Virus record (IMG/VR): IMGVR_UViG_3300032331_003909
Location: 1-28,974 of that record
Source of the DNA: a virus
DNA: 28,974 nt
Reading direction: 5' to 3' (one strand)
Positions 6,688-21,540 of the stretch are shown here, piece after piece; within the stretch, counting starts at the first letter, position 1, and each line of letters opens with the position of its first letter. A program made the translations under genes and the position numbers. The notes under the pieces were generated by a model. The model was not told where the DNA came from. It saw only the letters and a program-made list of their open reading frames with translations, and made no database searches.

Positions 6688-9060
6688 ATGAAAAATTTAG
6701 ATGGATTTTATAGGGGAGTTATTGTTCAAAACAATGACCCAAAAAAGTTGGGGAGAGTTAAGGTTTTCGTTCCACACATGCACCTTTCTTTAATTGACTT
6801 GGAAGAAAGTGACCATGACAAGGAATTTTATTTTGGAGAATTCGGAACAAATTATCAAAAGAAAGACCCAAATCTAGTCGATCTCACAAAATACATGGAG
6901 AAAATCAAGCTTAAACTTCCTTGGGCAGAGGTTTCTCTTCCAATTACGGGAGGCGGTTATAGCTCATTTAACTCTGCATCAAACAAGGCGACAATTTCCG
7001 ATAGCCCATCCTATGCAAATCAAATTGCAGAAGATGATGGATCAACTGGAGCACCAGCGGGTGCAGAAGTTAAGGCTAATCCACCATCGGATCGTTTTTC
7101 TTCTTCTTCTGACAATCCAAATCCCCTTGGTGCTACATATAACACCCAATCTTTTTACAATGCCCCAAAAGGAATGTTTGGTATTCCCCAAGTTAATACC
7201 AAAGTTTGGCTGTTTTTCTTGGATGGGAACCCAAATACACCTGTTATTTTTGGATATAGTCCATCAGCTTCCAGTTATAGTCAAATTTATGATGATACCA
7301 ATCATCCAAGTGGATACGAGAACAATGATCCAACGCAAGAAGCAAATCCAGAAAATGTAAAAAGAAGAAACATGATGACTATCAACCAAAAAGGGGGTAG
7401 TATTAGTTTCAATGGAACGGATAATGAAGAGTCGTTAAGCATTGCCCATGACAGTGGTTCATATAACGAGTTCAACAACTCTGGTCAACAGAATCTTGTG
7501 ATGGGACAAAAGAGCAGTTTGGTTAAAGGTTCTTCTTTTTCTACGATAGATGATACACATTCATTCCATTGTGGAGAGGATTCAAACGTTTCTGTTCAGA
7601 AGGATGTAAAGATAACAATTGGAAGTGCAAATTATGCAGCTGCACAAAGATGGAAAGATGCTGCATCTAATATACATGCTGTTAAAAGTCTTCCAGAGAC
7701 TCAAAATTCAGGAAGTGATGCGTTTTATTCCTCACCTCTTGCTAAAAAAAGTGGAGAAAATGGCCCATGTCCAGCGTGTAGTCAGGGAAGATCATATAAA
7801 ACATTAAAAGGTGGGAATGGTGACGAGAAAAATAATAAGACAATTGATGAGGGGCAAACTTCTTTTATTGATAGTCTTAAAGATAATTTTTTGGCATTTT
7901 TTGGAAAGAAGAGTAAGCTTGAAATAGAAGATGCAAAGGAAGAACAATTTCCAAAAACAGAAAATTGCCCTGTTTGTTCAGGAAGTGGAAAATCACCATC
8001 ATCCATGGGTGGAAACTTCCCAAAGGAAGAAAGAAAAGAGGAAACGGGAAATCTTTATTTGAACTCAGCACAGGACTTTTTTGAAGCGGAAAATGATTTG
8101 GGAGAAGGCGGAAGTTTAACTCTCAATGTTACCAAGGATGTATTCTTGAGTGTTGGATGTGCATCGAATGACTTTGATAGTGTCCGAGTTAACAACCAAG
8201 GGTCCGCACATGATATAGGATTAAAATTGGATGGGGAAAACGGTGTTTATCCCTCCCCAGTTGTTGGAGCGGTAGTGGAGAAGGTTCATGTGGATAGGTT
8301 TCCAGGTGGACAGTTTACGGTGGACGCTCAAAATGGAATCAACCTATTGGGCGGTTCTGGTGGGATCGATTTCAGTAGCACAGGAGTCATGAGCATTCAC
8401 GGAACAATTGCAGAAGTTACTGGAGAACAGGTAAATATTAGTGCAAAGAGCGGACTAAATATTGCAACTGATGATGTTCTTTCCATTAAAGGTTCAAATA
8501 TCTCAATTCAATCGTCCAATCAAGTGTTTGTTAAAACTGTTCTTGCAGTGGATGGAAATATAGTGTGTCGTGGAGGAATCATGGCGCAGGGAGAAGTATA
8601 TCTTCAACACGTTACAGCACCCGTTTCATTTCAAGAAACCGAATATCAGGCAGAATTGTATGGGACATCGTATGGAGAGAAGCAAATGGTGATGGGATTT
8701 ATAAAAAACACACAAACTATCACTATGGATATACCCGGTCTTGGAAACGATATCCCTTGCCTTGTAAAACAAACCGTTCCAATCTATACAACAGACAGTG
8801 GACAAAAAGCGGAAGATGGATGTATTTTTGTATATCCACATAGTCACGTCTTTAGAAATTTACCATTAAAACTCACAACCACATATGAATCGACTAGAAG
8901 AAGAGCGGCTGGAATAGAAGTCGCTGTAAGTGGTCCAATCGAGGCAAGTAAAATTTCCAATGGTTTAACTTGTCCTGAAATAAAAGGAACAACAAAAGAG
9001 GGTAACACTGGACTAAGTAATCAATTAAAGGCAAAGGAATTTACACCAATAGAAGTATGA
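6688..9060 (+). CDS. 5: Baseplate hub spike, gp5-like, without lysozyme domain
   Basis: A 790-residue homologue of the T4 gp5/VgrG spike. An OB-fold starts at once (YRGVIVQNNDPKKLGRVKVF, residues 8-27) and resumes at GIPQVNTKVWLFFLDGNPNTP near residues 170-190. The T4 lysozyme domain is absent. Residues from about 230 carry repeated short Gly/Ser-rich beta segments, ending in DGNIVCRGGIMAQGEVYLQ, consistent with the trimeric beta-helix needle. Two zinc-knuckle-like pairs, CPAC (C361, C364) and CPVCSGSG (C427, C430), are inserted in the middle and are not a feature of T4 gp5. It overlaps the next gene by ATGA. Hub-spike identity is secure; the metal binding is inferred. Confidence 0.88.
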   Translation: MKNLDGFYRGVIVQNNDPKKLGRVKVFVPHMHLSLIDLEESDHDKEFYFGEFGTNYQKKDPNLVDLTKYMEKIKLKLPWAEVSLPITGGGYSSFNSASNKATISDSPSYANQIAEDDGSTGAPAGAEVKANPPSDRFSSSSDNPNPLGATYNTQSFYNAPKGMFGIPQVNTKVWLFFLDGNPNTPVIFGYSPSASSYSQIYDDTNHPSGYENNDPTQEANPENVKRRNMMTINQKGGSISFNGTDNEESLSIAHDSGSYNEFNNSGQQNLVMGQKSSLVKGSSFSTIDDTHSFHCGEDSNVSVQKDVKITIGSANYAAAQRWKDAASNIHAVKSLPETQNSGSDAFYSSPLAKKSGENGPCPACSQGRSYKTLKGGNGDEKNNKTIDEGQTSFIDSLKDNFLAFFGKKSKLEIEDAKEEQFPKTENCPVCSGSGKSPSSMGGNFPKEERKEETGNLYLNSAQDFFEAENDLGEGGSLTLNVTKDVFLSVGCASNDFDSVRVNNQGSAHDIGLKLDGENGVYPSPVVGAVVEKVHVDRFPGGQFTVDAQNGINLLGGSGGIDFSSTGVMSIHGTIAEVTGEQVNISAKSGLNIATDDVLSIKGSNISIQSSNQVFVKTVLAVDGNIVCRGGIMAQGEVYLQHVTAPVSFQETEYQAELYGTSYGEKQMVMGFIKNTQTITMDIPGLGNDIPCLVKQTVPIYTTDSGQKAEDGCIFVYPHSHVFRNLPLKLTTTYESTRRRAAGIEVAVSGPIEASKISNGLTCPEIKGTTKEGNTGLSNQLKAKEFTPIEV

Positions 9061-9788
9061 TGTCGTTTTCAAAATACATTACAGAATCAGCATCGTCTGA
9101 TTTCAAAAATAACATACAAAAAACAATTTCTTTTTTGGAAAAGAAAAAGAAAGTTTTGTTTCTCACCACATCGAATCGATATGAAAAAAATGTGGATGAT
9201 GTTCCAAAAAGCACACAGATCGCATATCACATTCAAGAAATGGTTGGAATGAAAAAAATAGAAATTGTTGAAGTTCCAAATCTCAACATATACAATTGCG
9301 AAGGAAATGTGAGTAGTGCAAATGGAAATGGATGTGGAAAAAAAGAAGCATTGTTGGAAGATAAAGCAAAAAATCCCACAGGTTTTCACAGGTGTTGGTG
9401 TTCATTGCACCATAAAGATGATGAACTTTGGAAGATTTCAAGACCTCTATTTGAATCCGATTGTGTTTTATTTTTTGGTTCCGTTAGGTGGGGTCAGACC
9501 AATGCAATTTATCAGAAAATCATAGAAAGACTCTGTTGGATTGAAAACAGGCACACGACATTAAGGGAATCCAATATTGTTGGAAATATATCCGCTGGAA
9601 TTATTCTTACTGGACAGAATTGGAATGGTGAAAATGTCATAGAAACCCAAAAACAAGTCTTAAAATTTTATGGATTTGATGTTCAAAATGATATTTGTTG
9701 GAATTGGCAATATACAAACAATGCAAATGACGAATCAAAAGATTCATACAAACAAGCAATCAAAGAATTTAACGAAGAGCTTCTCTAA
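9057..9788 (+). CDS. NADPH-dependent FMN reductase-like flavoprotein with N-terminal head-targeting-like tag
   Basis: A 243-residue flavodoxin-fold protein. The phosphate-binding strand-loop VLFLTTSNRYEKN (about residues 33-45) is followed by CEGNVSSANGNGCG, then NPTGFHRCWCS, then FFGSVRWGQTN and WIENRHTTL, a pattern of NAD(P)H-dependent FMN reductases. It should reduce flavin or quinone substrates. About 32 residues precede the core; they start MMSFSKYITE|S, strikingly like the T4 internal-protein targeting peptide MKTYQEFIAE|A. The ATGATG start overlaps the gp5 stop, so either Met could be used. Its stop codon forms part of the next late box. The enzyme family call is good; packaging into the head is inference. 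Confidence 0.78.
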   Translation: MMSFSKYITESASSDFKNNIQKTISFLEKKKKVLFLTTSNRYEKNVDDVPKSTQIAYHIQEMVGMKKIEIVEVPNLNIYNCEGNVSSANGNGCGKKEALLEDKAKNPTGFHRCWCSLHHKDDELWKISRPLFESDCVLFFGSVRWGQTNAIYQKIIERLCWIENRHTTLRESNIVGNISAGIILTGQNWNGENVIETQKQVLKFYGFDVQNDICWNWQYTNNANDESKDSYKQAIKEFNEELL

Positions 9789-9791
9789 ATA
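9785..9791 (+). promoter_or_regulatory. Late promoter box CTAAATA
   Basis: Five bases before ATG 9797; its TAA is the stop codon of the flavoprotein gene. Confidence 0.8.
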
Positions 9792-9796
9792 ACAAT

Positions 9797-10834
9797 ATGT
9801 CTAGGTTTGATAACACAATTAATGCACTTTTGGAGAGTTTGATTTTTGAGCAAGATCAAAGCGAAATTGAAAAGGCAAAAGAAATCGCCGATAAAGCTAG
9901 ACAAGATATTAAAACTCAATTTGATGCTGATCCTGAAATATTTGTACAAAATGCCAACAATAAAATAGCATCTTACGATTATTTAGCCAATGCATTCGTG
10001 GATTATGTTACAAAAATAAAAGACTCTTCCATAAAAACAATTCAAGACACCTCAAGTATAAAAGAACAGACCGATGATACACTTCAAGATGTAACATCCA
10101 AGGTAAAGGATTTCGCTCTTCAATTTGGAAAAAAGGCTGGAAGTGTGATTGGTGGAACATTTGAAAAAGGACTCGATCTTGTCACAGATGAACTTGTTGA
10201 AAAAGTACCATCGATCATGAAAGGACTTATGGGGTCGGAAACATATGATAAAGTTAGAGCGGAAGTTGATCAAATGGAAGATAGTTTTTTGTATAAGGTG
10301 TTTGCATTTTTGGACCCAACAGGCGTATTGTCTTGGACATATTTGGAGGAAGCTAAAGCTCTTTATGAAAAAAATCTCGGAACAGAAAACGAAGATATAT
10401 ACACATTGAATCTTTTAGCGGCGGCAGTGGCCGTGATACCCGGCGTTAGTGCATTGAAAATATTCACCGTTCCTTTCAAAATATTATCACCATTAACAAA
10501 AATTTTCGGTATTGGAAGAGCGGAGAGAATAGCTAAAGCTGTTGCAAATGAATTTAAAACGGCATTTAATTTGGGAGGCAAGATGCGAAAAGCAACAACA
10601 ATTGGGGGGAAAATTGGAGCATTTGCAAAAAATATCGCAAAACCAATTAAACCTATTGCAAAACTTTTTGCATCTGGTGCAAAAGCAGCTACAGTAATTG
10701 CTTCTGGTGACATCCCTCAAACTTGGAAAGATTGGACAGAGGAAGGTAAAAAGGAACTGGAAAAAGTTAAACCAGCTGAAAGAACATTGGGTAAATTCCC
10801 AAGTTTTGCAGGACTATCAACGCAAAGATTTTAA
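9797..10834 (+). CDS. Putative ejected/internal virion protein with hydrophobic helices
   Basis: A 345-residue protein not matched to a named family. The N terminus MSRFDNTINALLE|S resembles a capsid-targeting tag with an LxE site. A long charged, probably coiled-coil region follows (residues 15-180), then FLDPTGVLSW and a hydrophobic segment LNLLAAAVAVIPGVSALKIF near residues 204-223, then a lysine-rich, glycine/alanine-rich region (about 240-310) with repeated IGGKIGAF and IAKPIKPIAKLFASG stretches that look amphipathic. This arrangement suits a protein that contacts or crosses membrane during DNA entry, but no activity can be shown. A CTAAATA box lies 5 nt upstream. Its 3' end overlaps the convergent NUDIX gene by 18 bases. 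Confidence 0.55.
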   Translation: MSRFDNTINALLESLIFEQDQSEIEKAKEIADKARQDIKTQFDADPEIFVQNANNKIASYDYLANAFVDYVTKIKDSSIKTIQDTSSIKEQTDDTLQDVTSKVKDFALQFGKKAGSVIGGTFEKGLDLVTDELVEKVPSIMKGLMGSETYDKVRAEVDQMEDSFLYKVFAFLDPTGVLSWTYLEEAKALYEKNLGTENEDIYTLNLLAAAVAVIPGVSALKIFTVPFKILSPLTKIFGIGRAERIAKAVANEFKTAFNLGGKMRKATTIGGKIGAFAKNIAKPIKPIAKLFASGAKAATVIASGDIPQTWKDWTEEGKKELEKVKPAERTLGKFPSFAGLSTQRF

Positions 10835-11242
10835 TGATTTCAAGACATCTGGAAGACATATTTCAAAAATCTTAGAAATTTTTATTTTATCCAAGTTTTC
10901 CAATTTAACCCAAGAATAGTCGATATGTTCATCGGATAAAGTTATATCGTGAAAAGGTTCATTGACCTTGAAAATATAAGTAAAATATTTGTTTCCACGT
11001 ATTTTAAATTCAAGTTCTTTTTTATTGACTCCTTTTATTGTTCCAATTTCTTCCTTCGCCTCCCTTTTTGCGGTTTCCAAAGGTGTTTCTTGTTCAATTG
11101 GCTTTCCGCCAACAAAACCCCACTTTTTATTTGGTTTTTTAAGAAGTAGAATTCTCTCTCCATCGTAAAAAACAATTCCTGCACCGTGGAATCTGTTAAT
11201 GTTCGATTCCTTGATAATTTTGTATGCTTCAAAAATGTTCAT
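10817..11242 (-). CDS. NUDIX hydrolase with N-terminal head-targeting-like tag
   Basis: A 141-residue NUDIX protein that should hydrolyse a nucleoside diphosphate linked to another group (dNTP, NDP-sugar, ADP-ribose or capped RNA; substrate not readable). The full NUDIX box GX5EX7REUXEEXGU is present at G46, E52, R60-E61, E64-E65 and G67. The core begins at FHGAGIVFYDGERILLLKK; ahead of it are 16 residues, MNIFEAYKIIKE|SNIN, that fit the tag shared by neighbouring proteins. A CTTAAATA late box (minus strand, 11248-11255) lies 5 nt before the ATG, so it is expressed late. It is the only minus-strand gene in the 4472-16593 block and overlaps the gene at 9797 at their 3' ends. It sits beside the tandem hairpins at 11262-11367. 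Confidence 0.9.
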   Translation of the reverse strand: MNIFEAYKIIKESNINRFHGAGIVFYDGERILLLKKPNKKWGFVGGKPIEQETPLETAKREAKEEIGTIKGVNKKELEFKIRGNKYFTYIFKVNEPFHDITLSDEHIDYSWVKLENLDKIKISKIFEICLPDVLKSLKSLR

Positions 11243-11247
11243 AGAAG

Positions 11248-11255
11248 TATTTAAG
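11248..11255 (-). promoter_or_regulatory. Late promoter box CTTAAATA
   Basis: Minus strand, five bases before the NUDIX ATG at 11242. Confidence 0.75.
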
Positions 11256-11261
11256 ATAAAC

Positions 11262-11367
11262 GGCTGATTCGTCTAGGTGATCTTTAGTCGCCTAGATGAA
11301 TCAGCCCTGATCGTTAAGGGCTGAGTGAAAACCATGTGATCTTTAGTCGCATGGATGAAACTCAGCC
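11262..11367 (+). ncRNA. Tandem hairpins with identical loop TCTTTAG
   Basis: Two direct-repeat hairpins. Hairpin 1, 11262-11306: 19 bp stem with two or three G-U pairs when read as RNA, loop TCTTTAG at 11281-11287. Hairpin 2, 11319-11367: outer stem of 8 bp, a 5x5 internal loop, inner 8 bp stem, the same 7-base loop at 11340-11346. The inner stems differ (CTAGG/CCTAG versus CCATG/CATGG) but remain paired, as if selected for structure. Both begin GGCTGA and end TCAGCC. A third hairpin, 11301-11308 with 11317-11324, uses the 3' foot of the first and the 5' foot of the second, so it excludes both. No T-run follows on either strand, so simple terminators are unlikely. It could be RNA on either strand or a DNA palindrome bound by protein. 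Confidence 0.6.
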
Positions 11368-11410
11368 AAAAAATAATTAGAAAAAATCATTGAAAATGAA
11401 AATAGCAACA

Positions 11411-11417
11411 CTAAATA
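11411..11417 (+). promoter_or_regulatory. Late promoter box CTAAATA without a gene behind it
   Basis: Same sequence as the gene-linked boxes, but the next good gene starts 298 bases away. It may drive the structured region at 11423-11700. Confidence 0.5.
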
Positions 11418-11702
11418 ATTTAAACTCCTTTAATGGAGATAGTTCTTTAAAAAAGAATAAAAAGACCTTTCAGTGGCGTAGCGAGATTAACTTCTTAGGA
11501 TGCTGATACCAAGTAAATCAAAGGCAAAAAGAACATACTATGGATGTTCATCGTCTGGAACAGACGATTACAGGCATGGAGCTAAAATAAGACCAAACAA
11601 ACTTGATTTGAATGGCATAAGCAATGAAGTGCTGAAAAAGAAAGAACATTTATGTTCTGGAAGCCAGCGGGTCTTTAGCTCACTGGTAGTTCACGATCTT
11701 TT

Positions 11703-11709
11703 CTAAATA
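11703..11709 (+). promoter_or_regulatory. Late promoter box CTAAATA
   Basis: Five bases before ATG 11715. Confidence 0.8.
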
Positions 11710-11714
11710 ATAAC

Positions 11715-12155
11715 ATGAGATTCGATGACTTTGTAAATAAAATTCTAAGAGAGGCAACTTTTTCCACGCAACCAAAAGACGTGAAAAATGTTCCAACAAC
11801 TACACCAAAAGATGGTTTATCCGCTATTACAGGAGTTTCCACACAAGGGACACCAGTAAACCAACAACAAGTAACTCAACAAGGTCAAGTTGTGCAACAA
11901 CCACAGAAACAAGAAGTCGATTCTTCAGATCAAGATACCGATTCATCCGATGCAATTGAAGGATTAGTTGATGCAATTGAAAAAGGAAATAAACAACAAG
12001 AAGATTTTTATAAAAAAATGATAGCTACAATGACTGCACAAAAGGCACAAGCATCAACAACTCCAGCCCAAACAACATCTCCAACAACTGCACCAGCAAC
12101 AAATGTTCCAAATTCTCAACAAATTATTGCTAATTTGCAAAAACTTGGACAGTAA
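11715..12155 (+). CDS. Probable internal head protein, low complexity
   Basis: A 146-residue Gln/Thr/Pro-rich protein without recognisable fold. The N terminus MRFDDFVNKILRE|A fits the tag shared by its neighbours, with an LRE|A site at residue 13. After it comes a disordered stretch rich in Q, T and P, an acidic patch (SSDQDTDSSDAIEG), a short helix around residues 75-100 and another TTxA-rich stretch. The position, two genes before scaffold and capsid, matches where T4 keeps small prohead core genes. A CTAAATA box is 5 nt upstream of the ATG. Probably packed in the prohead core and trimmed; no biochemical role can be read. Confidence 0.6.
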   Translation: MRFDDFVNKILREATFSTQPKDVKNVPTTTPKDGLSAITGVSTQGTPVNQQQVTQQGQVVQQPQKQEVDSSDQDTDSSDAIEGLVDAIEKGNKQQEDFYKKMIATMTAQKAQASTTPAQTTSPTTAPATNVPNSQQIIANLQKLGQ

Positions 12156-12159
12156 ACAG

Positions 12160-12167
12160 TATAAATA
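12160..12167 (+). promoter_or_regulatory. Late promoter box TATAAATA
   Basis: Exact T4 consensus, nine bases before ATG 12177. Confidence 0.85.
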
Positions 12168-12176
12168 ATTCATAAT

Positions 12177-13238
12177 ATGGGTAAAAACTCCGATCATAAA
12201 AATATTTTTGAATCTTATTATAACAATGTTGTGTTAAATGAACAAACTGATCTCTCAAAAGAGGACATTGTTAATTTAAATGCGCTTTTGAAAACAGCAA
12301 CTGGTGATGCGAAAAAATCAATTCAAGCTGAAATTGATAAAAGAGTGAGTCAAGTAGCACTAGCACAACAACCCAAAGACGTGTATAAGGGTAATGAGGA
12401 TAATAGCGACCTTAAATGGGATGAACATAGCGCACCACCAGCACCAGTATCAGCAGCACCAGAGACAGCGCAACCAGCACAAGTAGCAACTCAACAACCA
12501 CAAGTAGCAGCACCTCAACCCACAACTGGTAGTGGAGAGTTTGATGAAATTGCAAATTTAAAAGCAGCATTGAATAATCCGAATTTAGATCCAACGCTAA
12601 AAAAAATAGTACAAGATAGGATCACTGAATTATCAAAACAACCACAACCACAAGCGAAACAAGCGGCTCAACCAAAAGCACAATCTTCTGGAGGGGGATC
12701 AATAGTTGATTATTTGGCTAGTAAAGGGCAACCTACAGATAAAGCATCTAGAGCAAAACTTGCAGCACAAGAAGGTATACAAAATTATAGTGGAACAGCT
12801 GAACAAAATATTCAACTTTTAAATAAACTAAAAAGTAAAGAAAAATCATCAGCACAACAACCTGCAACTCAGAAAGCAGCACAACCAGCAAAAAAATCAG
12901 GCGGGGTATCCAAGGCTGTTGGTGATGTCGGCACATCAATTAAAAAAGGTTTAGTTGGTAGCGAAAAACCACTTGGAGGTGCAGCGGGACTCGCTTCAAA
13001 AGGAATTGCAAGTGTTGGAAATCTCGCAAAAGGTGCAGCAAAAGGAATTGGGAGGGCATTAGTTGGAGATCAAGATGAATCTGAAGAAGAAGGATTCGTT
13101 CAATTTGAAAATAATAATATTGCTAAATTTTTAAAATCTCTATCTGAAAAAGATTATTCTAACGCCAATAAATATTTAAAAACTATTGTGGATAATAAAA
13201 TAAATCGTAATGTTTTAAAAAACATAAATAATAAATAA
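12177..13238 (+). CDS. Probable prohead core/internal protein, paralogue of the next gene
   Basis: A 353-residue protein, mostly disordered and Ala/Gln/Pro/Lys-rich, framed by two conserved ends. The N-terminal end has SDHKNIFESYYNNVVLNE|Q, tag-like with LNE at residues 20-22. The C-terminal end, IAKFLKSLSEKDYSNANKYL (from about residue 313), is shared with the next protein and recalls the helical start of T4 gp67 (a short helix-turn-helix ending in a lysine-rich tail). Between them are a helical stretch (residues 28-60), Pro/Gln/Ala runs, and a Gly/Ala/Lys region like that of basic DNA-binding tails. A perfect TATAAATA box at 12160-12167 precedes it. Likely part of the scaffold core or ejected contents. 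Confidence 0.6.
   Translation: MGKNSDHKNIFESYYNNVVLNEQTDLSKEDIVNLNALLKTATGDAKKSIQAEIDKRVSQVALAQQPKDVYKGNEDNSDLKWDEHSAPPAPVSAAPETAQPAQVATQQPQVAAPQPTTGSGEFDEIANLKAALNNPNLDPTLKKIVQDRITELSKQPQPQAKQAAQPKAQSSGGGSIVDYLASKGQPTDKASRAKLAAQEGIQNYSGTAEQNIQLLNKLKSKEKSSAQQPATQKAAQPAKKSGGVSKAVGDVGTSIKKGLVGSEKPLGGAAGLASKGIASVGNLAKGAAKGIGRALVGDQDESEEEGFVQFENNNIAKFLKSLSEKDYSNANKYLKTIVDNKINRNVLKNINNK
13223..13237 (+). promoter_or_regulatory. Double late box CATAAATA / AATAAATA
   Basis: Two overlapping boxes; the second is five bases before ATG 13243 and runs into the previous stop codon. Confidence 0.75.
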
Positions 13239-13242
13239 CAAT

Positions 13243-14136
13243 ATGTCAAAAAAGAGCGATATGAAAAATTTAGCCGATGCATATGATAGTATGTTGCTAA
13301 ATGAAGCGGTTAAACCAACTGAAAGCAATGAACCGATTAAACCATTAACTCCTGAAGAAAAGGCTTTCGGTGAAAGAGCTAGAGCCAATGGTAAGAACTG
13401 GACAGAGGCTCAAACGAGATTAATGTTCCAACGTCAAAATGAAATTAATACGCAAGGAACAAACTCTTCTACTACACAAACTCAGCAACCACAGCAACCC
13501 CAACCATCACAACTAGGTGGAACTGTTGGTTCTCAGTCTAATACAATTGGAAATGTTGCTAATACTGTTAAGCCAACGCAACCCGCTCAACCAACACAAA
13601 GTAATGATGATGAAGGTTATGAAGAAGTTGAAACTACTGTTGAAAGAATACCAAATGTGACTCAAACATATACTTCCCCTTCAGCAAACCAAGCACAAAG
13701 ACAACCATCACAACTAGGTGGAATTATTGGTTCTCAGTCTAATACAATTGGAGATGTTGGCGGTTTTGCTAAAGCACAAACAAATCGGCCTGTAGAAACT
13801 ACAGTACAACGAATTCCAAATGCAGTTACAACTACATCTATTGCTGCTGGAGATGATGAATTTGAACAAAATGATGAAGATGAGAGTGATGATGAAGGTT
13901 ATGAAGAAGTTGAAACTTCTGTAGAAAGAATACCAAATGCAACTCAAACCACATCTATTGCTGCTGGAGATGATGAAATCAAGCCATATCATAAAAAAAT
14001 TCAAGAAAAAATTAACATTTCTAAATTTTTAAAGCATCTTTCTGAAAAAAATTATTCGTCCGCGCATAAATATTTAAAAGCAATCGTGGACGATAAGGTG
14101 AAAACTAAAATTGCACAAAGAATTGCAAAAATTTAA
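13243..14136 (+). CDS. Probable prohead core/internal protein with internal repeats
   Basis: A 297-residue paralogue of the preceding gene, sharing N- and C-terminal ends: SDMKNLADAYDSMLLNE|A at the start and ISKFLKHLSEKNYSSAHKYL near the end. The middle is disordered and built from duplicated blocks: PSQLGGTVGSQSNTIG recurs 67 codons later as PSQLGGIIGSQSNTIG, DEGYEEVETTVERIPN recurs 94 codons later, and TTSIAAGDDE occurs twice. Such repeats point to expansion by slippage or recombination. A doubled TAAATA box lies 5 nt before the ATG; the box overlaps the previous stop codon. It probably forms part of the prohead core before the scaffold protein encoded next. Confidence 0.6.
   Translation: MSKKSDMKNLADAYDSMLLNEAVKPTESNEPIKPLTPEEKAFGERARANGKNWTEAQTRLMFQRQNEINTQGTNSSTTQTQQPQQPQPSQLGGTVGSQSNTIGNVANTVKPTQPAQPTQSNDDEGYEEVETTVERIPNVTQTYTSPSANQAQRQPSQLGGIIGSQSNTIGDVGGFAKAQTNRPVETTVQRIPNAVTTTSIAAGDDEFEQNDEDESDDEGYEEVETSVERIPNATQTTSIAAGDDEIKPYHKKIQEKINISKFLKHLSEKNYSSAHKYLKAIVDDKVKTKIAQRIAKI
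13501..13759 (+). repeat. Duplicated 58-base coding blocks
   Basis: The block at 13501-13558 recurs at 13702-13759 with few changes and in frame (offset 201 bases). It encodes PSQLGG..GSQSNTIG. A second in-frame duplication pairs 13606-13659 with 13888-13941 (offset 282 bases), encoding DDEGYEEVET.VERIPN. Confidence 0.85.
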
Positions 14137-14141
14137 AACAT

Positions 14142-14149
14142 AATAAATA
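14142..14149 (+). promoter_or_regulatory. Late-box-like AATAAATA overlapping the gp22 start codon
   Basis: The last A is the first base of ATG 14149, so a promoter here could not make an mRNA carrying the start codon. Either it is not a promoter or gp22 is read from upstream. Confidence 0.3.
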
Positions 14150-15024
14150 TGGATATCAAAAAGCAACTTAAAAAGGTAACTAAGGAACTTCTCAGCGAAG
14201 AATCTCTTAATGAGATTCAAGCTTCATTTGAAGCAGCAGTTGAAGAGAAGGCAAAAATCCAAGTAGCATCCGCTCTCGTAAAACAAGATGCTGACTACGC
14301 CAATAAACTCTCTCACCTATTGGAAGCAATCGATAAAGATCACACCAAGAAACTTCAAAAGGTTGTAAAAGCAATTGATATCAATCACGGTCAAAAATTA
14401 CAATCAATTGTTGAAAAATATCAAACCGCTCTTATTAGTGAAGCTGGTTCTTTCAAATCGAACATCATCAACGATGTTTCAACATACCTCGACGCATATG
14501 TTGAAGAAGCTCTTCCAAAAGCTCAAATTCAAGAGGCTGTTAACAACCGTAGAGCTAAAATCGTACTTGAACAAATCAAAGAATTTCTCGGTGTTGATAG
14601 TGCCGTTTCAAAGAAAGCTGTTAAATCAGCAATCATCGATGGTAAGAAACAAATCGATGAAGCGAATGGAAAATTTGCTGCAATTCAAAGAGAACACAAT
14701 GTCCTCGTTGAACGTTACAATCACATTGCTTCCGAACTTATTCTTGAAAAGAAAAGTGCTGGACTTAGCGATAAGAAAAAAGACTATATCAATCGCATTA
14801 TGAAAGGTAAGAGTGCTGAATTCATAAATGAAAACTATGATTATGCTCTAAATCTTTTTAATAAAAATGAAACCGAAAGGCTTCATGAACTAAAGGAAAG
14901 TGCCATTAGAAAAGCAGTGGCAACTAACGTAGATGTTCCTCAAATTCTTGAGGAAAAAACCCAAGTTAAACAAGAGGAAGAAGTTCAAATGAACCCATAC
15001 CTCAGAGAACTTTCCAAATACTAA
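14149..15024 (+). CDS. 22: Prohead core scaffolding protein, gp22-like
   Basis: A 291-residue, highly charged, almost entirely helical protein directly before the capsid gene, the same place and size as T4 gp22 (269 residues). It has long coiled-coil stretches (about residues 20-130 and 165-215), followed by the segment NRIMKGKSAEFINENYDYAL, which in gp22 proteins is the conserved region before the variable tail, and ends NPYLRELSKY. Possible protease sites of [L/I]-x-E type occur near the start (LLSEE, SLNEI), in keeping with destruction of scaffold on maturation. The AATAAATA upstream overlaps its ATG, so it may be read mainly from an earlier promoter. The scaffold role is strongly supported by context, less by sequence identity. 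Confidence 0.82.
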   Translation: MDIKKQLKKVTKELLSEESLNEIQASFEAAVEEKAKIQVASALVKQDADYANKLSHLLEAIDKDHTKKLQKVVKAIDINHGQKLQSIVEKYQTALISEAGSFKSNIINDVSTYLDAYVEEALPKAQIQEAVNNRRAKIVLEQIKEFLGVDSAVSKKAVKSAIIDGKKQIDEANGKFAAIQREHNVLVERYNHIASELILEKKSAGLSDKKKDYINRIMKGKSAEFINENYDYALNLFNKNETERLHELKESAIRKAVATNVDVPQILEEKTQVKQEEEVQMNPYLRELSKY

Positions 15025-15038
15025 TTTTAGCTGAGATA

Positions 15039-15045
15039 TTAAATA
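15039..15045 (+). promoter_or_regulatory. Late promoter box TTAAATA for leader peptide and capsid gene
   Basis: Four bases before the leader peptide ATG at 15050 and 51 bases before the capsid ATG. Confidence 0.8.
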
Positions 15046-15049
15046 ATTA

Positions 15050-15100
15050 ATGTCTGAATTAAGTCGAAAAAATAAAGGAGAAACACAAAAACGAATATGA
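15050..15100 (+). CDS. 16-codon leader peptide overlapping the capsid gene start
   Basis: A short ORF encoding MSELSRKNKGETQKRI starts four bases after a TTAAATA late box and ends TGA, overlapping the capsid start codon as ATGA. A GGAG purine run inside it (15077-15080) is 16 bases before the capsid ATG, too far to be an ideal Shine-Dalgarno site. If the late mRNA begins near 15050, this peptide would be translated first and ribosomes would reinitiate on the capsid gene. It is too short for coding statistics; evidence is the promoter spacing and the exact ATGA overlap. Confidence 0.5.
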   Translation: MSELSRKNKGETQKRI

Positions 15101-16593
15101 AATCTATACGCCCTACACAAGCCTATATTGACCAAACTCGCGCTGAAGCTCTTTTGGAGAAGTGGAAGCCAGTTCTGAATTATACTTCAGATAAGGTTGC
15201 CGCTATCGAAGACGATCATACCCGCCTCAATACTGCTATGCTTCTTGAAAACCAAGAACGCTGGTGCATTGAGGAATCCAACCAAGCTGGTGGAAGCTCT
15301 TCCGTTTTCGGAAGTGTTAACGCTGGTGGTTTTGGTGGTGCTGGAAATAACTTCCCCAACAGTTACCCTGCTGGTGATGTTTATGCCCAAGGTGATGCTC
15401 GTTTGCCAAAGATCCTCATCCCGATGATTCGCCGTACTTTCCCCGAATTGATTACTAATGAAATCGTAGGCGTTCAACCAATGGGCGGACCCGTTGGCCT
15501 CGCTTTCGCATTACGTTACAAGTACCTCGCCCAACAACTCGGTAATGATGGTGTTGATGGTTCTGGCATAAATGCTGGAACTAATCTCAACAACCCTCAA
15601 GCCCAAGCTGACGGCAAGGAACTCGGCTACCAATACCTCGACACCCGTTATACTGGCACTTCTAGTGCCAAGCTTTCTGGTGCTAGCGGAGCATATGCAA
15701 ATCTTTTCCCAATGGTTGGACAAGATCAAGGCGTTGCTCAACTTCTCGCAAACTTCGAATTGACAGGTAAAATCCCTCAAATTGAAGTTAGCTTCGAGAA
15801 GACCGCAGTCGAAGCTGGCACACGCCGCCTCGCTGCTCGCTGGTCTGTCGAATTGGAGCAAGACTTGAAGAATATGAATGGCATCGATATCGATACCGAA
15901 CTCACCAATGCAATGTCTTACGAATTGCAAGCTGAGATCGACCGTGAGATGATCATGCGTATGATTCAAACTTCTCTCAATGCTGGCTTTGGCGTTGGAT
16001 ACTCCGTATGGAGTCCTGCCTCTGCTGATGGTCGTTGGTTAGTTGAACGTAATCGTGATTTCTATCAACGTTTAATCATCGAAGCTAACCGTATTGCAAT
16101 CCGCAACCGCCGTGGTGCAGCAAACTTCATCGTTTGTACCCCTCGCGTTGCAGCAATCCTCGAAATGTTACCCGAATTCCAATGGGTTCCAGTTCAAGGC
16201 AATGTTAATACTCAGCCTGTCGGTGTTGCAAAAGTTGGTAATCTCGGAGGAAGGTTTAATGTTTACCGTGACACTCGTACAGAAGCTCAATTTGAGCAAG
16301 GTCGTAGTTCCACTTACCTTTCACCAGGCCAAGTTCGTCCAAATCGCGTCGAATATGCTTTGCTTGGTTACAAAGGTCCAGAGTTCTATGATACTGGTAT
16401 TATCTATTGCCCTTACATCCCTGTGATGATCCAAAGGACAATCGGCACTAATGATTTTTCACCTCGCGTGGGTCTTATGACCCGCTACGGAGTGGTGGAT
16501 TCAATTTTTGGCGCGAATTTATACTACCACACAATTCTGTTAGCAGGTCTAGGTGAAGCATTTACACCAGCGAATACCTCGGTCTACTTCTAA
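15097..16593 (+). CDS. 23: Major capsid protein, gp23-like
   Basis: A 498-residue HK97-fold major capsid protein of the T4 gp23 type. The N-terminal helix AEALLEKWKPVLN (from residue 16) matches the gp23 delta-domain start (AELLNKWKPLL in T4). Further matches are PMIRRTFPELITNEIVGVQPMGGPVG, ARWSVELEQDLKNMNGIDID, NFIVCTPRVAAILE, YALLGYKGPEFYDTGIIYCPYIP and PRVGLMTRYG. A CIEE|S site at residue 60 is close to the T4 processing site at residue 65 and predicts removal of about 60 residues by the prohead protease. Codons are richer in C and G at third positions than in its neighbours, as expected of the most strongly expressed gene. A rho-independent terminator follows at 16617. Confidence 0.97.
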   Translation: MKSIRPTQAYIDQTRAEALLEKWKPVLNYTSDKVAAIEDDHTRLNTAMLLENQERWCIEESNQAGGSSSVFGSVNAGGFGGAGNNFPNSYPAGDVYAQGDARLPKILIPMIRRTFPELITNEIVGVQPMGGPVGLAFALRYKYLAQQLGNDGVDGSGINAGTNLNNPQAQADGKELGYQYLDTRYTGTSSAKLSGASGAYANLFPMVGQDQGVAQLLANFELTGKIPQIEVSFEKTAVEAGTRRLAARWSVELEQDLKNMNGIDIDTELTNAMSYELQAEIDREMIMRMIQTSLNAGFGVGYSVWSPASADGRWLVERNRDFYQRLIIEANRIAIRNRRGAANFIVCTPRVAAILEMLPEFQWVPVQGNVNTQPVGVAKVGNLGGRFNVYRDTRTEAQFEQGRSSTYLSPGQVRPNRVEYALLGYKGPEFYDTGIIYCPYIPVMIQRTIGTNDFSPRVGLMTRYGVVDSIFGANLYYHTILLAGLGEAFTPANTSVYF

Positions 16594-16616
16594 TAGAAGT
16601 CAAGGCAAAACTCTAG

Positions 16617-16651
16617 AAAGCCAAGAAGAAATTCTTGGCTTTCTTTTTTTT
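16617..16651 (+). terminator. Rho-independent terminator after the capsid gene
   Basis: A perfect 11 bp stem (16617-16627 with 16632-16642) closed by a GAAA tetraloop, followed by C and then a run of eight T. It ends transcripts of the gp22-gp23 region 24 bases after the capsid stop codon and separates them from the convergent endonuclease gene, whose stop lies just beyond. Confidence 0.93.
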
Positions 16652-16652
16652 A

Positions 16653-17222
16653 TTAAAAATCACAAATTTCTTCTATTTCTTTTAAATATTTTTTAAAAAA
16701 CCAACTTGGAACAACAGATTCTATGTTTGTTTTGTAAATTTCTTTAATAAGAGAAAACGCAACTTCATTTTTTACATTGTGTGATAATTCTGAAAATTCT
16801 TTTTCAAATCTTTCAATACCAAGATGACAATATCCAGATGGATATTTTTTAGATTTAATAAAACCATGTTTGAAATCTGTATTAATCTCAATAAAGTCAA
16901 ACGGTGTAAATTTTTTAATAGTTTCTGGTTTTAGTTGAATAAAATATGGAATTCTATACATATGCCATCCCCTATCTTCACATTCCATGTCTTTATATTT
17001 GTCGTTAATTATTGTTTTAGGATTTTGATAATGAAAGTGACTGTCAAATTCAAAAACAACAGTTTCACCATGATAATCGAATATTACATCCCATTCAAAT
17101 TTTTTTTGATACTTATCTTTTTCATTAAATCTTAAATTTTCAACAAATTCAATTTGTGAAATGATATTTTGGAGCTTGGATTCTGTTAGAAATCCATCGT
17201 ATTTAATTTTTTGTTTTTTCAT
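16653..17222 (-). CDS. PD-(D/E)xK / Vsr-like endonuclease, probably free-standing homing type
   Basis: A 189-residue protein with a restriction-endonuclease-like core: FEWDVIFDYHGETVVFEFDS followed by HFHYQNP, a downstream K-D-x-E-C-E-D-R stretch and GWHMYRIPYF. This strand-turn-strand with D and E-F-D-x-H, then a helix and a final strand, is the pattern of Vsr/DUF559-like nucleases, several of which are phage homing enzymes. The frame is open to an ATG at 17261, but that ATG lies in the -35 element of a good sigma70-like promoter, so ATG 17222 is chosen. It is AT-rich, lies opposite to the flanking capsid gene, has no late box, and is bounded by terminators on both sides. Cleavage target unknown. 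Confidence 0.65.
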   Translation of the reverse strand: MKKQKIKYDGFLTESKLQNIISQIEFVENLRFNEKDKYQKKFEWDVIFDYHGETVVFEFDSHFHYQNPKTIINDKYKDMECEDRGWHMYRIPYFIQLKPETIKKFTPFDFIEINTDFKHGFIKSKKYPSGYCHLGIERFEKEFSELSHNVKNEVAFSLIKEIYKTNIESVVPSWFFKKYLKEIEEICDF

Positions 17223-17232
17223 ATGAGAATAT

Positions 17233-17261
17233 AGTATATTACATGAATCAAAAAAAGTCAA
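17233..17261 (-). promoter_or_regulatory. Sigma70-like promoter for the endonuclease gene
   Basis: On the minus strand TTGACT (17261-17256), a 17-base spacer and TATACT (17238-17233), one mismatch each from the bacterial -35 and -10 consensus. Predicted transcription start is near 17226, only a few bases before the ATG at 17222. It is the only well-matched host-type promoter noticed, in contrast to the late boxes of the other genes. Confidence 0.7.
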
Positions 17262-17266
17262 AAATA

Positions 17267-17299
17267 AAAAACCCCTTGGTTTATTACCAAGGGGTTTTT
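17267..17299. terminator. Bidirectional rho-independent terminator
   Basis: A 14 bp perfect stem (17267-17280 with 17286-17299) with a 5-base loop. The GC-rich core CCCCTTGG is flanked by A residues on the left and T residues on the right, so it has a U-run in either direction. Its main use is to end the minus-strand transcript of the acidic protein gene at 17321. Confidence 0.92.
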
Positions 17300-17320
17300 C
17301 TTTATATATTGTTCTATTTC

Positions 17321-18169
17321 TTATTGATCAAAGAGTGATTTACCAGTCTTGAGGCTTCCAACTTTGTTCTTGGAAGGATTGGTAAGTTCCGACTTATGAT
17401 CGAGAGGGTGTTTACCAGTTTCTGTTCCAACTGTATCAGTTACCTTTGCATCAGCCTTACCAGAAGAAGCCTTGATATTACCAGCGGCAGCAAATCCTTT
17501 TTGGAGCTTGTGACCAGCGGAATCTGGAAGTTTTTCGATGTCGGTTGTTTCATACATACCTTGTTCATCTTCTTCTTCGGCATCTCCATCTTCATCGGAA
17601 TCAACTCCGAGGTCTTCTAAATCTGTGTCAGATTCATCAGAACCTTCGTCTTCGCCCATTGAATCGGCTACTTGTTGAAGAAGGTCGATTGCCTTTTGAA
17701 GCATTTCTTTGGGTGATTCAGTTGATTCGTCGCTATCGGAATCAGTTTCGCTATCAACGTCAAAGTCTTCGACATCTCCAGCAGAACCTTCTGGTCCCAT
17801 TCCAATGCCTGTGTTTAAGTTAAGTTCGTCATTCTTCATGACATCTTCGTAGAGTTTATCAAATATGCTCATAAATTTATTTATATCTTGTTCATCTAAT
17901 TTTTTGGTTTTTTGTGAAAATTTTTCATTTTTCTTTGCCTTAGTGAGATTTTTTACATTTTGAGGTCCACCCTTTTTAAATGTAGAAGGCTCTTTTACGA
18001 CTTCTTCGGATCTTTTAAATGTATCTTTTGGAAATTTGGCCTTGACTTTTTGGCTTTTCTTTTTAGTGGATACTGATTCATTGATTTGTGTAGCATCTGC
18101 TGCACTAGCTTGTTGCATTGCACGGTAAATATTACCAATGTCTTTGATTGATTTTGATCTGTTCATCAT
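17321..18169 (-). CDS. Acidic disordered protein, probable head core component
   Basis: A 282-residue protein without a recognised family. The first 30 residues, SIKDIGNIYRAMQQ to ATQINE|S, resemble the tags of other internal-protein candidates but are longer, with an INE|S site. A basic stretch (residues 32-90, many K) follows, then a very acidic central region (about residues 120-215, runs of D, E and S such as DSDEDGDAEEEDEQG) with an embedded helix EMLQKAIDLLQQVADSMG, and a Gly/Ser/Lys-rich tail ending GKSLFDQ. Strong acidity next to capsid genes recalls T4 gp67. A CATAAATA box (minus strand) lies 11 nt upstream; the terminator at 17299 ends it. Start may be either Met of ATGATG. Confidence 0.5.
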   Translation of the reverse strand: MMNRSKSIKDIGNIYRAMQQASAADATQINESVSTKKKSQKVKAKFPKDTFKRSEEVVKEPSTFKKGGPQNVKNLTKAKKNEKFSQKTKKLDEQDINKFMSIFDKLYEDVMKNDELNLNTGIGMGPEGSAGDVEDFDVDSETDSDSDESTESPKEMLQKAIDLLQQVADSMGEDEGSDESDTDLEDLGVDSDEDGDAEEEDEQGMYETTDIEKLPDSAGHKLQKGFAAAGNIKASSGKADAKVTDTVGTETGKHPLDHKSELTNPSKNKVGSLKTGKSLFDQ

Positions 18170-18180
18170 AGGTTTTAATG

Positions 18181-18188
18181 TATTTATG
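18181..18188 (-). promoter_or_regulatory. Late promoter box CATAAATA
   Basis: Minus strand, eleven bases before the acidic protein ATG at 18169. Confidence 0.72.
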
Positions 18189-18211
18189 TTTTTGATGTGT
18201 GAAAATGCAAA

Positions 18212-18799
18212 CTATTGAAAATAAATTTTAAACACTAAATTAGTTGGATTTGGTTTTTTATCTTTTATATGGCTTTTCCCAACCCAATACTTTTCAAAAT
18301 CATCTTCCACATAAGGCGTTTCTTCCTTTGTTCTATTATTTAAAACAAATGTTACAAATCCCTTTTCATTTGATTCTTTTAAAAGTTTTCTGAAAAATTC
18401 TTTACCTTTTGTATTTGCAACTTGATCCAACGTCACACTAGAAAAAATTTGTGAAAAATAATTCAAAAAAACTCGCCTCAAAAAACCTTTAGTATCTTCT
18501 GATTTTCTTTGTGCAACAGTTTTGCTGATCATTCCTCCATCAGCGTCTATTGAAAATTCAACATATGCATTTGCTACATTATTTTTGATGAAACAAAAAT
18601 ATGAATATTTCTGATCAATCGTATTTTTATATACTTCTACACCTTCAAAAGAATTGAGTTTTTCTCCATTTTCAAAACAACTCTTTACAATTTCTTCATT
18701 TTTCGATTCATCGTTTAAATCTATTGGCAAAATTTTTTCGAAAAAAATAGGATTTTCGTTTAACAACAGTTGTTTGACTAAAGTATTAAAGTTTTTCAT
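18212..18799 (-). CDS. Unknown protein with head-targeting-like N terminus
   Basis: A 195-residue protein. The start MKNFNTLVKQLLLNE|N fits the tag motif (F, hydrophobic helix, LNE at residues 13-15). The remainder is a compact alpha/beta domain: YFCFIKNNVANAYVEFSIDA, then a helix GFLRRVFLNYFSQIF, then KGKEFFRKLLKES with GFVTFVLNN. This alternation, especially the G-K-x-F-F-x-x-L-L helix after a strand, faintly recalls acetyltransferase-like folds but lacks a convincing acetyl-CoA signature. Its start overlaps the end of the next upstream gene by 14 bases, so the two are co-transcribed. Function unknown. Confidence 0.6.
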   Translation of the reverse strand: MKNFNTLVKQLLLNENPIFFEKILPIDLNDESKNEEIVKSCFENGEKLNSFEGVEVYKNTIDQKYSYFCFIKNNVANAYVEFSIDADGGMISKTVAQRKSEDTKGFLRRVFLNYFSQIFSSVTLDQVANTKGKEFFRKLLKESNEKGFVTFVLNNRTKEETPYVEDDFEKYWVGKSHIKDKKPNPTNLVFKIYFQ

Positions 18800-19323: not shown

Positions 19324-21540
19324 ATGACAACAAAAAAAGGTCCAAAAGAAAAATTTTATTTGGGAAACACAAACCTCCCAACAGCACAAACGCAATATGA
19401 TTACACTCCTGACATGATCAAGGAGATTGCAAAGTGTAGAAAAAATATTCTACATTTTGCGAGTAATTATTTTTATATTATCAATGTTGATGAGGGTAGA
19501 CAGAAGATTAAACTTCATAAATTTCAGAAGAGAATTTTGAAGGCATTGATGGAGAATAGGTTTAATATCTTGTTGGCTTCCAGGCAAATAGGAAAAACAA
19601 CCCTTATGACAATTTATGCTCTTTGGGTTGCTCTTTTTGAAGAAGATCAAAGAATTTTAATTGTAGCGAACAAGGAACAAACCGCAAAAATGATTCTCAA
19701 AAGAATTAAAACAGCATTTGAAATGATGCCAAATTTTATCAAAGCTGGTGCGGTGGAATATGGTCAAACAAATATCTCACTTTCCAATGGTTCTTCTATT
19801 GGTATCTCCACAACAAGTAGTGATGCGGGTCGTGGTGAATCGGTAAATTGTTTACTAGTTGATGAAATTGCACATATTGAATGCTTTAGCGGAGAAACAT
19901 TCGTTAGAGTTAGAAATAAAAAAACTAAAGAAATTCAAAAAATTAAAGTAGAAAATTTCACAAAACAATTAAACAAAACTGAACAAATAATCGAAGAGGG
20001 TTTTGGGGATGTTATTAAAACATTTGCTAATTTAAATGAATGGGAAATTGAAACACCTAATGGATGGAGCGATTTCAAAGGCATCACCAAGATGAAAAAG
20101 AAACAACTTTATTCTGTAACAACGGAAAAGGATAAAAATGTAATCGTTTCTAAAAACCATTTTTTTATAGATGAGAATGATGAAAAAATGTTCTGTAAAG
20201 ATGCATTGAATAAAAATATTAAAACAATTGATGGTTTGGAAAAAGTCACAAAAATAGAAAAATACAAAAAGGGATGTGTTTATGACTTAATTTCCGTGGA
20301 AAAAGGAAATGTTTTTTATGGAAATGGTATTTTACACCATAATTGTGGATTATTAGAGGAATTCTGGAGGTCTGTCTATCCAATTATTTCATCTGCCAAA
20401 AAGTCCAAAATTCTTGCGGCATCCACACCGAAAGGAATCGGTAATCTTTTTCATGATCTTTGGGAAGGTGCAAATAAAACAGGAGAGGAATGGAACGGTT
20501 GGCACGGTGAAAGAGTAGACTGGTGGGAAGTTCCAAATAGAGATGAAAAATGGAAATTAGAAACCATGAGAACAATTGGTTCCAGAGAAGCATTCATGCA
20601 AGAGTTTGAAAATGCATTTCTAGCATCTGGTGAAATTCCAATTGACAAGGATGTTTATGATATGTTGGAATCTGGTTGCAAAGATCCAGAATACATTTTC
20701 GATGATGGTCAATATGTTGTATGGGACGAACCAAATGAAAAATGTCATTATGTTGTTGGTGTGGACGTTGGAGAAGGTTTGAATCAAAATGCCACAGTAT
20801 GTCAGATTCTAAACATCACAGACCTAACAAATATCACACAAGATGCCGTCTATTATACAAAGAAAATATCACCATATTATTTTGCCCAAAAATTACACGA
20901 TCTATTGCAACAATGGGGAAGACCACCAGTGCTTATAGAAAGAAACGGTTGTGGAGCACAAGTCATTGATTCTCTAAAAATGAATTATGGTTATGAAAAT
21001 ATTGTAACATGGGGAACGAAGGGTGCGATATCCAATGATTTCAAGATAACAAACAAAGCTGGTATTATAAGCCACCAAAATTCCAAGATAGAAGCAGTTA
21101 CAAATATGAGATACTTTCTCAATGAAATGAGAAGCATCAAAATAAGAGACATAAAGACATTAAGTGAAATTAAGGACTTCATTCGTCATCCAAATGGAAC
21201 ATGGAGTGGTAGAACTGCAAACACTTTGGATGACAGGGTTATGGCTCTTGTTTGGGCAACTGCCATTTTCATCAATGACATTTGCAAGAGATATTACGAG
21301 ATGATTGCAATGGATGACAATCAAAGACCATTAAAAATAAAACCAATCGATTATGGAATCACGGATATAGTATCTCCAAGCAATATATACGTGAACGAAA
21401 AAGATGCGCAAGCATTCATGCCACTTCCCACTGTTTTTAGTAATCCGATTGGAACAAAAGATGAATTTTCCAACATTCCAGATTATGAAATTTTAAAAAA
21501 AGATGGTTGGGATATTTTCACAAAGGATTTCAACTTCTAA
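19324..21540 (+). CDS. 17: Large terminase subunit, gp17-like, interrupted by an intein
   Basis: The DNA-packaging motor ATPase and nuclease, 738 residues as translated and 584 after predicted splicing (T4 gp17 has 610). Walker A is SRQIGKTT (residues 86-93) as in T4 (SRQLGKTT); Walker B is LLVDE (177-181). The intein occupies residues 187-340, five residues after the Walker B glutamate. Past it come ISSAKKSKILAASTPKG (ATPase coupling motif) and the RNase H-like nuclease with GVDVGEG (D481), VLIERNGCG (E539) and NTLDDRVMA (D636/D637). All catalytic residues are intact. A CTAAATA box is 6 nt upstream. The stop codon forms part of the next late box. No small terminase gene is seen next to it. 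Confidence 0.96.
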   Translation: MTTKKGPKEKFYLGNTNLPTAQTQYDYTPDMIKEIAKCRKNILHFASNYFYIINVDEGRQKIKLHKFQKRILKALMENRFNILLASRQIGKTTLMTIYALWVALFEEDQRILIVANKEQTAKMILKRIKTAFEMMPNFIKAGAVEYGQTNISLSNGSSIGISTTSSDAGRGESVNCLLVDEIAHIECFSGETFVRVRNKKTKEIQKIKVENFTKQLNKTEQIIEEGFGDVIKTFANLNEWEIETPNGWSDFKGITKMKKKQLYSVTTEKDKNVIVSKNHFFIDENDEKMFCKDALNKNIKTIDGLEKVTKIEKYKKGCVYDLISVEKGNVFYGNGILHHNCGLLEEFWRSVYPIISSAKKSKILAASTPKGIGNLFHDLWEGANKTGEEWNGWHGERVDWWEVPNRDEKWKLETMRTIGSREAFMQEFENAFLASGEIPIDKDVYDMLESGCKDPEYIFDDGQYVVWDEPNEKCHYVVGVDVGEGLNQNATVCQILNITDLTNITQDAVYYTKKISPYYFAQKLHDLLQQWGRPPVLIERNGCGAQVIDSLKMNYGYENIVTWGTKGAISNDFKITNKAGIISHQNSKIEAVTNMRYFLNEMRSIKIRDIKTLSEIKDFIRHPNGTWSGRTANTLDDRVMALVWATAIFINDICKRYYEMIAMDDNQRPLKIKPIDYGITDIVSPSNIYVNEKDAQAFMPLPTVFSNPIGTKDEFSNIPDYEILKKDGWDIFTKDFNF
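19882..20343 (+). mobile_element. Mini-intein inserted just after the terminase Walker B motif
   Basis: A 154-residue in-frame intein. It begins with the block A pattern CFSGETFVRV (Cys1), has a block B-like SKNHFF, a block F-like CVYDLISVEKGNVF, and ends with block G GILHHN followed by Cys as the first C-extein residue. These carry the residues needed for protein splicing: Cys1, the block B His, penultimate His, terminal Asn and +1 Cys. The size leaves no room for a LAGLIDADG or HNH homing endonuclease between blocks B and F, so it cannot move by itself. The interrupted terminase sequence rejoins as VDEIAHIE-CGLLEEFW. Splicing is predicted, not shown. Confidence 0.94.

Follow-up and report, generated by a model that had tools for sequence, protein, structure and literature searches.

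Predicted T4-type capsid-targeting leaders on diverse proteins of an uncultured T4-like phage and its relatives

Eight leaders around a capsid locus

The IMG/VR virus record IMGVR_UViG_3300032331_003909 is a 28,974-base piece of an uncultured T4-like phage genome (the window, meaning the whole stretch analysed; 29 genes in the counts), and eight of its proteins begin with a short leader, or tag, that ends in [I/L]-x-E. On the evidence given below, these common N-termini are most probably T4-type signals for capsid targeting and processing, serving a general route by which cargo enters the head. All eight N-termini quoted by an earlier sequence-only reading were found in the sequence as stated, each with its [L/I]-x-E ending; the leaders are 10-15 residues long in five proteins and 21-31 in three.

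The leader MMSFSKYITE/S (9057..9086, plus strand; the slash marks the predicted cut) opens a flavodoxin-fold oxidoreductase (coding sequence 9057-9788) and stands in the register of T4 MKTYQEFIAE, with aromatic residues at P7 and P4 and I at P3. It is followed on the same strand by MSRFDNTINALLE/S (9797..9835) on a 345-residue protein of unknown function (9797-10834) and, on the minus strand, by MNIFEAYKIIKE/S (11207..11242) on a protein (10817-11242) that had been read as a NUDIX hydrolase and is one (PF00293, E=4e-15, domain from residue 20). Three more plus-strand genes carry MRFDDFVNKILRE/A (11715..11753; a 146-residue low-complexity protein, 11715-12155), MGKNSDHKNIFESYYNNVVLNE/Q (12177..12242; a putative prohead-core protein, 12177-13238, with a second possible site at NIFE/S) and MSKKSDMKNLADAYDSMLLNE/A (13243..13305; a second putative prohead-core protein, 13243-14136). 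The last two, on the minus strand, are MMNRSKSIKDIGNIYRAMQQASAADATQINE/S (MMNRSK...ATQINE, 18077..18169) on an acidic low-complexity protein of 282 residues (17321-18169) and MKNFNTLVKQLLLNE/N (18755..18799) on a 195-residue protein of unknown function (18212-18799). The assignments at 9797, 11715, 12177, 13243 and 18799 draw on the sequence together with a matrix built from the tags. A nuclease-like protein at 16653-17261 (minus strand) has KYDGFLTE/S close to the N-terminus; this could be a ninth tag, but its score is low and it may be due to chance. IPSIGE at 26137, already regarded as chance-like in the sequence-only reading, scores far below the real tags and was dropped.

In T4 the 10-residue leader of internal protein IPIII suffices for packaging, its residues 4 and 7 steering targeting and its residues 8 and 10 cutting, and gp21 cuts after L/I-X-E (PMC9026906). 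The 30 tags of the window and of G008, a 116-kb relative with gene order in common with the window, have I or L at P3 in 29 cases, a hydrophobic residue at P4 in 77%, S or A at P1' in 17 and F at P10 in about one third, a profile that agrees with the L/I-X-E rule and with the targeting and processing residues of IPIII (PMC9026906). At targeting positions 4 and 7 of the T4 leader (P7 and P4), MSFSKYITE has the aromatic residues exactly in place, as do relatives such as MKTFKEFYLE; the other leaders have hydrophobic residues in a shifted helical register.

The bodies behind the leaders had been described as unrelated, a description that does not hold for the 12177 and 13243 proteins. Both carry at the C-terminus a related helical module, about 33 residues long, located by profile search at 13107..13235 on the plus strand (IAKFLKSLSEKDYSNANKYLKTIVDNK..), with its paralogue at about 14017-14133 on the same strand. 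The module is present in most related capsid loci (most of L001-L080), in the gene beside the scaffold and often as a protein of 45-60 residues. Because of this placement in the scaffold-adjoining gene, the 12177 and 13243 products are probably prohead-core proteins. Homology of the module to T4 gp67, plausible by eye, was tested and not found: compared with shuffled versions of itself, gp67 ranked 1383 of 1794. The "membrane-active" label given to the 9797 protein was supported by no search. The scaffold-like gene itself (14149..15024, plus strand, in the position of gp22) adjoins the capsid gene, and in the relatives examined it has the core gene on one side and gp23 on the other; family searches with it gave no match, and its product is presumed to be the core on which the leaders would dock. 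The major capsid protein (15097..16593, plus strand) belongs to the gp23 family (PF07068, E=8e-87).

Frequency and distribution of the leaders

Of the 29 window genes, 8 encode an aromatic residue, then 4-8 residues and [ILV]xE, among their first 24 residues, compared with 1.1 in composition-preserving shuffles (maximum 5 in 300), and [IL]xE[SAN] occurs in 8 compared with 1.0; against internal segments the window motif is enriched with p=2e-5. The relatives behave in the same way, with 27 genes in G008 for the aromatic plus [ILV]xE motif (10.0 shuffled), 49 in G018, a 308-kb phage genome record, for [IL]xE[SAN] (16.4 shuffled), and counts above every shuffle in G001 and G005. The N-termini of cyanophage Syn9 have no motif excess over shuffles, and those of T4 a mild one, for the stricter motif only. 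The bare [IL]xE was set aside as evidence, being too common (14 of 29 window genes against about 20% of arbitrary protein stretches), so that only the motif plus its context is informative. The tag matrix, trained on just the eight window tags, served as a cross-check only; its recall in G008 is low, with 7 genes above threshold against about 22 found by inspection. In T4 it places gp24, whose propeptide is cut after residue 10, first of 258 genes. It is gp21 that removes this short propeptide from the N-terminus of gp24 (PMC5694885).

A comparison of N-termini over all protein pairs of each genome, from which pairs with similar bodies were removed, reveals that whole leaders recur on different proteins. 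In G018, 60 proteins have an N-terminal partner at a score of at least 40 (shuffles give 4.0, internal segments 8), and in G008 there are 15 at a score of at least 36, compared with 2.0. The matched N-termini of G018 are mostly of the leader types MKIIITE/S, MNLQENIxRIxxMMGxIxE, MKELIKKxLREE and MKKIIRLTESxL..VxxVINE, a minority being signal peptides or tail proteins. The same test on T4 returns ipII, ipIII, gene 61.1 and homing endonucleases. Synonymous codons vary among the ITE leaders of G018, which suggests that conservation acts on the peptide and not on the DNA. About 22 genes are tagged in G008 and about 49 in G018; the sequence-only reading underestimated the scale of the proposed cargo system, whole relatives having 20-50 tagged genes. 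Enzymes of the NUDIX and Zn-protease kinds are among the tagged bodies, as are, in G018, proteins resembling pterin dehydratase, LysM and SLT. Parts of G018 (L171-L186), for example 58-84 kb and 288-291 kb, encode dozens of small uncharacterised proteins that start with MKIIITES, MNLQENIxRIxxMMGxIxE, MKELIKKxLREE or MKKIIRLTESxL, and these leader-bearing blocks may be a large predicted arsenal of injected proteins.

The tags are not evenly distributed along the genomes. Adjacent tagged pairs number 10 in G008 (against 2.9) and 24 in G018 (against 6.2). The sequence-only reading had the tags clustered around the scaffold and capsid genes; they are not confined to these, and G008 has several clusters across the fragment. 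They are rare in the structural block of G018 (2 of 64 genes against 47 of 309 elsewhere, p=0.007), and in the window none is present on the tail proteins (sheath, tubes and hub) or on the terminase. A TAAATA box, which resembles the T4 late promoter TATAAATA, lies within 45 bases upstream of 15 of the 22 tagged genes of G008 and 31 of its 134 other genes (p=6e-5; p=0.02 with tags defined by regular expression), while in the window alone the difference (6 of 8 tagged genes, 9 of 21 others) is not significant. In both the window and G008 these boxes are often about 12 bases before the start codon of the tagged gene, so that late messages would be nearly leaderless.

The leader as an addition to the body

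The body of the flavoprotein is well conserved in about 56 phage contigs (64% mean identity over aligned columns) and is preceded across them by at least seven unrelated leader types. [LIMV]xE stands before the domain in 48 of 56 contigs, the remainder apparently having mis-called starts; shuffling the leaders, in which the same residues abound, would yield 32, and the motif count alone is therefore modest evidence. In cellular homologues (Sulfurovum, Candidate Phyla Radiation (CPR) bacteria and archaea), which are 50-60% identical, the core motif lies 15-27 residues from the start with a median of 24, whereas the median in the phages is 39 (p=1e-10), and the difference is the leader. The AlphaFold (AF2) model has pLDDT<50 in residues 1-12 only, and the remainder adopts a flavodoxin-type quinone/azo-reductase fold (best Foldseek E=4e-7, TM about 0.5). 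No sequence match for the 9057 protein was found in Pfam, NCBIfam or PDB; its description as a flavoprotein is supported by fold, with many quinone and azoreductases among the Foldseek matches. The leaders of the flavoprotein resemble, on average, the other leaders of their own contig (p=0.009). Neither the flavoprotein nor the Zn-protease has cultured relatives in the phage collection.

Replacement of the leader is seen in other families as well, including that of the Zn-protease. A protein with an RARHKC motif carries four leaders in four T4-like contigs (MKTFKEFYLE/E, MKSFETLFLE/S, MNNFDQLVNVLLE/S and MFEQVYVQLLTE/E), and its homologues in three Roseobacter phages and in Flavobacterium phage elemoF start directly at the body. 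The S77 (gp21-type) protease is undetectable in these four phages and detected in T4, HTVC008M and Syn9; the RARHKC homologue of HTVC008M has a long N-terminus of its own. Among orthologues of the window proteins, the 9797 leader is kept in G001, G007 and G008, with body identity down to 33-40% in the last two. The NUDIX leader is present in six orthologous loci (L164-L169) and absent in a distant homologue (L170), and the 11715 leader is conserved in L007 (MLFDQFVNKILKE/A), where the stretch after it diverges. The site of the protein at 18169 is kept as ATQLNE/S in G001 and STIDE/S in G008, with changed surroundings.

Targeting, cleavage and alternative explanations

Starting from the observed motif, its statistics, its conservation and its separability from the bodies, we infer a route of core docking, cleavage, packaging and injection. 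The amphipathic part of the leader would probably dock the new protein onto the prohead core, a gp21-type protease would cut after [I/L]-x-E during head maturation, and the mature cargo (the redox enzyme, the NUDIX hydrolase and the disordered proteins) would stay in the head with the DNA. These steps are drawn from the T4 work on IPIII, the register match of MSFSKYITE/S and the matrix rank of gp24; that the cargo is probably injected at the next infection is a further step suggested by T4 IPI and Alt. A search of 41 related records, mostly fragments, found the S77 protease in 18; it is present in the tag-bearing related genomes G002, G005, G006, G010 and G018. The cleavage site of the major capsid protein was considered as independent evidence of the protease specificity of the clade and set aside, as several candidate sites could not be told apart. 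The proposal of a T4-type cleavable leader, as made in the sequence-only reading, is supported by the excess over shuffles, the conservation in relatives, the gain of the leader compared with cellular and podovirus homologues, the co-occurrence of S77 in related genomes, the late-promoter-like boxes and the near-absence of tags from the structural-gene block.

Several points weigh against this proposal. Neither the window nor its three closest long relatives, all fragments, have a prohead protease gene, and no virion proteomics for the clade was found. The exact predicted cleavage site is ambiguous in the long leaders with two [IL]xE sites. Over T4 as a whole the eight-tag matrix gives no excess (3 genes, 2.9 expected), and the flavoprotein leader clearly matches those of its own contig in just 10 of 33 loci, with short flanks. 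Gene starts came from a simple gene caller, and the 22 tags of G008 were chosen by reading, while an ad hoc pattern supplied the 49 of G018; the shuffle counts rest on neither choice.

The leaders could be a product of chance, since AT-rich early codons (K, I, N and F) make motifs of hydrophobic residues and E frequent near starts. The bare [IL]xE is indeed frequent there, and in T4 and Syn9 the looser motif exceeds expectation slightly if at all, but shuffles that preserve composition are exceeded in the window, G001, G008, G005 and G018, whole leader patterns are common to proteins without similar bodies, and the extension is absent from cellular and podovirus homologues, which makes chance hardly credible. 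A less improbable, though still unlikely, alternative is that the leaders direct proteins elsewhere or have another role, such as membrane docking, a replication compartment, stability or enhanced translation, their likeness to gp21 sites being incidental. Their amphipathic character fits this alternative, as does the shortness of some (MKIIITES). However, what stays constant is precisely the motif that gp21 recognises, followed by an enrichment in S or A, two tagged proteins have the module that adjoins the scaffold in most related capsid loci, the same approaches retrieve T4 gp24, ipII and ipIII, and the synonymous codon variation in G018 argues for selection on the peptide. It could also be that only the core proteins (12177, 13243 and perhaps 11715 and 18169) are truly in the head, the leaders of the enzymes being inherited segments without packaging. 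Direct linkage to the head, by position and module, does concern just these first two proteins. This alternative is nonetheless very unlikely: the leaders on the enzymes are additions peculiar to the phages and have the same site, most of the flavoprotein leader types end at the same motif before the domain, and the leader is retained at 80-94% body identity.

Taking the leaders as T4-type targeting and processing signals, we lean towards the view that large uncultured T4-like phages have a general and evolvable head-import system, in which unrelated leader families, presumably matched to their own prohead core, have only the [I/L]-x-E cut in common and dozens of captured proteins (redox enzymes, NUDIX hydrolases, proteases, DNA-binding proteins and others of unknown function) make the virion a preformed toolkit for the start of infection. 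Proteins packed in the head act before phage gene expression; T4 IPI, which counters a restriction enzyme, is an example. The mechanism is already known from T4; new here are the scale, the enzyme cargo and the divergent leader families. Like the capsid-targeting sequences of T4 IPI-IPIII and Alt (PMC9026906), these are short leaders on unrelated bodies with an L/I-x-E end and a small residue after it, MSFSKYITE/S aligns with MKTYQEFIAE/A at both aromatic targeting positions, the capsid is of gp23 type and relatives have S77. T4 has in essence a single leader, carried by a handful of small proteins, whereas here there are at least 8 tags in 29 kb, about 22 in the 116-kb fragment and about 49 in the 308-kb genome, of several unrelated families and with a flavodoxin-fold reductase, NUDIX, Zn-protease and pterin dehydratase among the cargo. 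In the giant phages phiKZ and SPN3US, too, a distant relative of gp21 (gp175/gp245) cuts N-terminal propeptides after Glu from numerous ejection proteins of the inner head (PMC5694885), but most of these propeptides exceed 100 residues and have S/A-x-E sites, compared with 7-31 residues and I/L-x-E here. DarB of phage P1 (PMC9024508) also has an N-terminal head-targeting signal, which can send a reporter to the capsid; it is on one large protein of a different head system, and no common leader ending in [I/L]xE is described for it.

A leader that can be recognised in sequence would allow the injected proteome to be predicted for thousands of environmental phages, mostly proteins of unknown function with some enzymes of metabolism. 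Candidates for counter-defence and takeover would be indicated directly, and how a single head core recognises leaders unrelated in sequence becomes a testable question. The exact leader strings have no match in open-access papers, a scope that excludes most subscription papers and preprints.

Similar N-termini are found in cultured phages. T4 gp61.1 (NC_000866, 18966-19130; L211) starts with MKTFKEFIKE/D, nearly an internal-protein leader, and gp2, the DNA end protector (76061-76885; L212), with MAIFQIINE/S; both are possible unrecognised gp21 substrates. In Syn9 the annotated cytidyltransferase at 149735 (gp184, L217) starts with MKKFSAFLSE/A, a T4-type leader on an enzyme. The closest relatives of the window are environmental contigs only, cultured phages reaching about 34% identity at most (capsid protein). 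The remaining window genes include a tail sheath, tail tubes, a gp5-like hub and an intein-containing large terminase (19324-21540), in which the apparent intein (CFSGETFVRVRN...HHN C) lies between the ATPase motifs.

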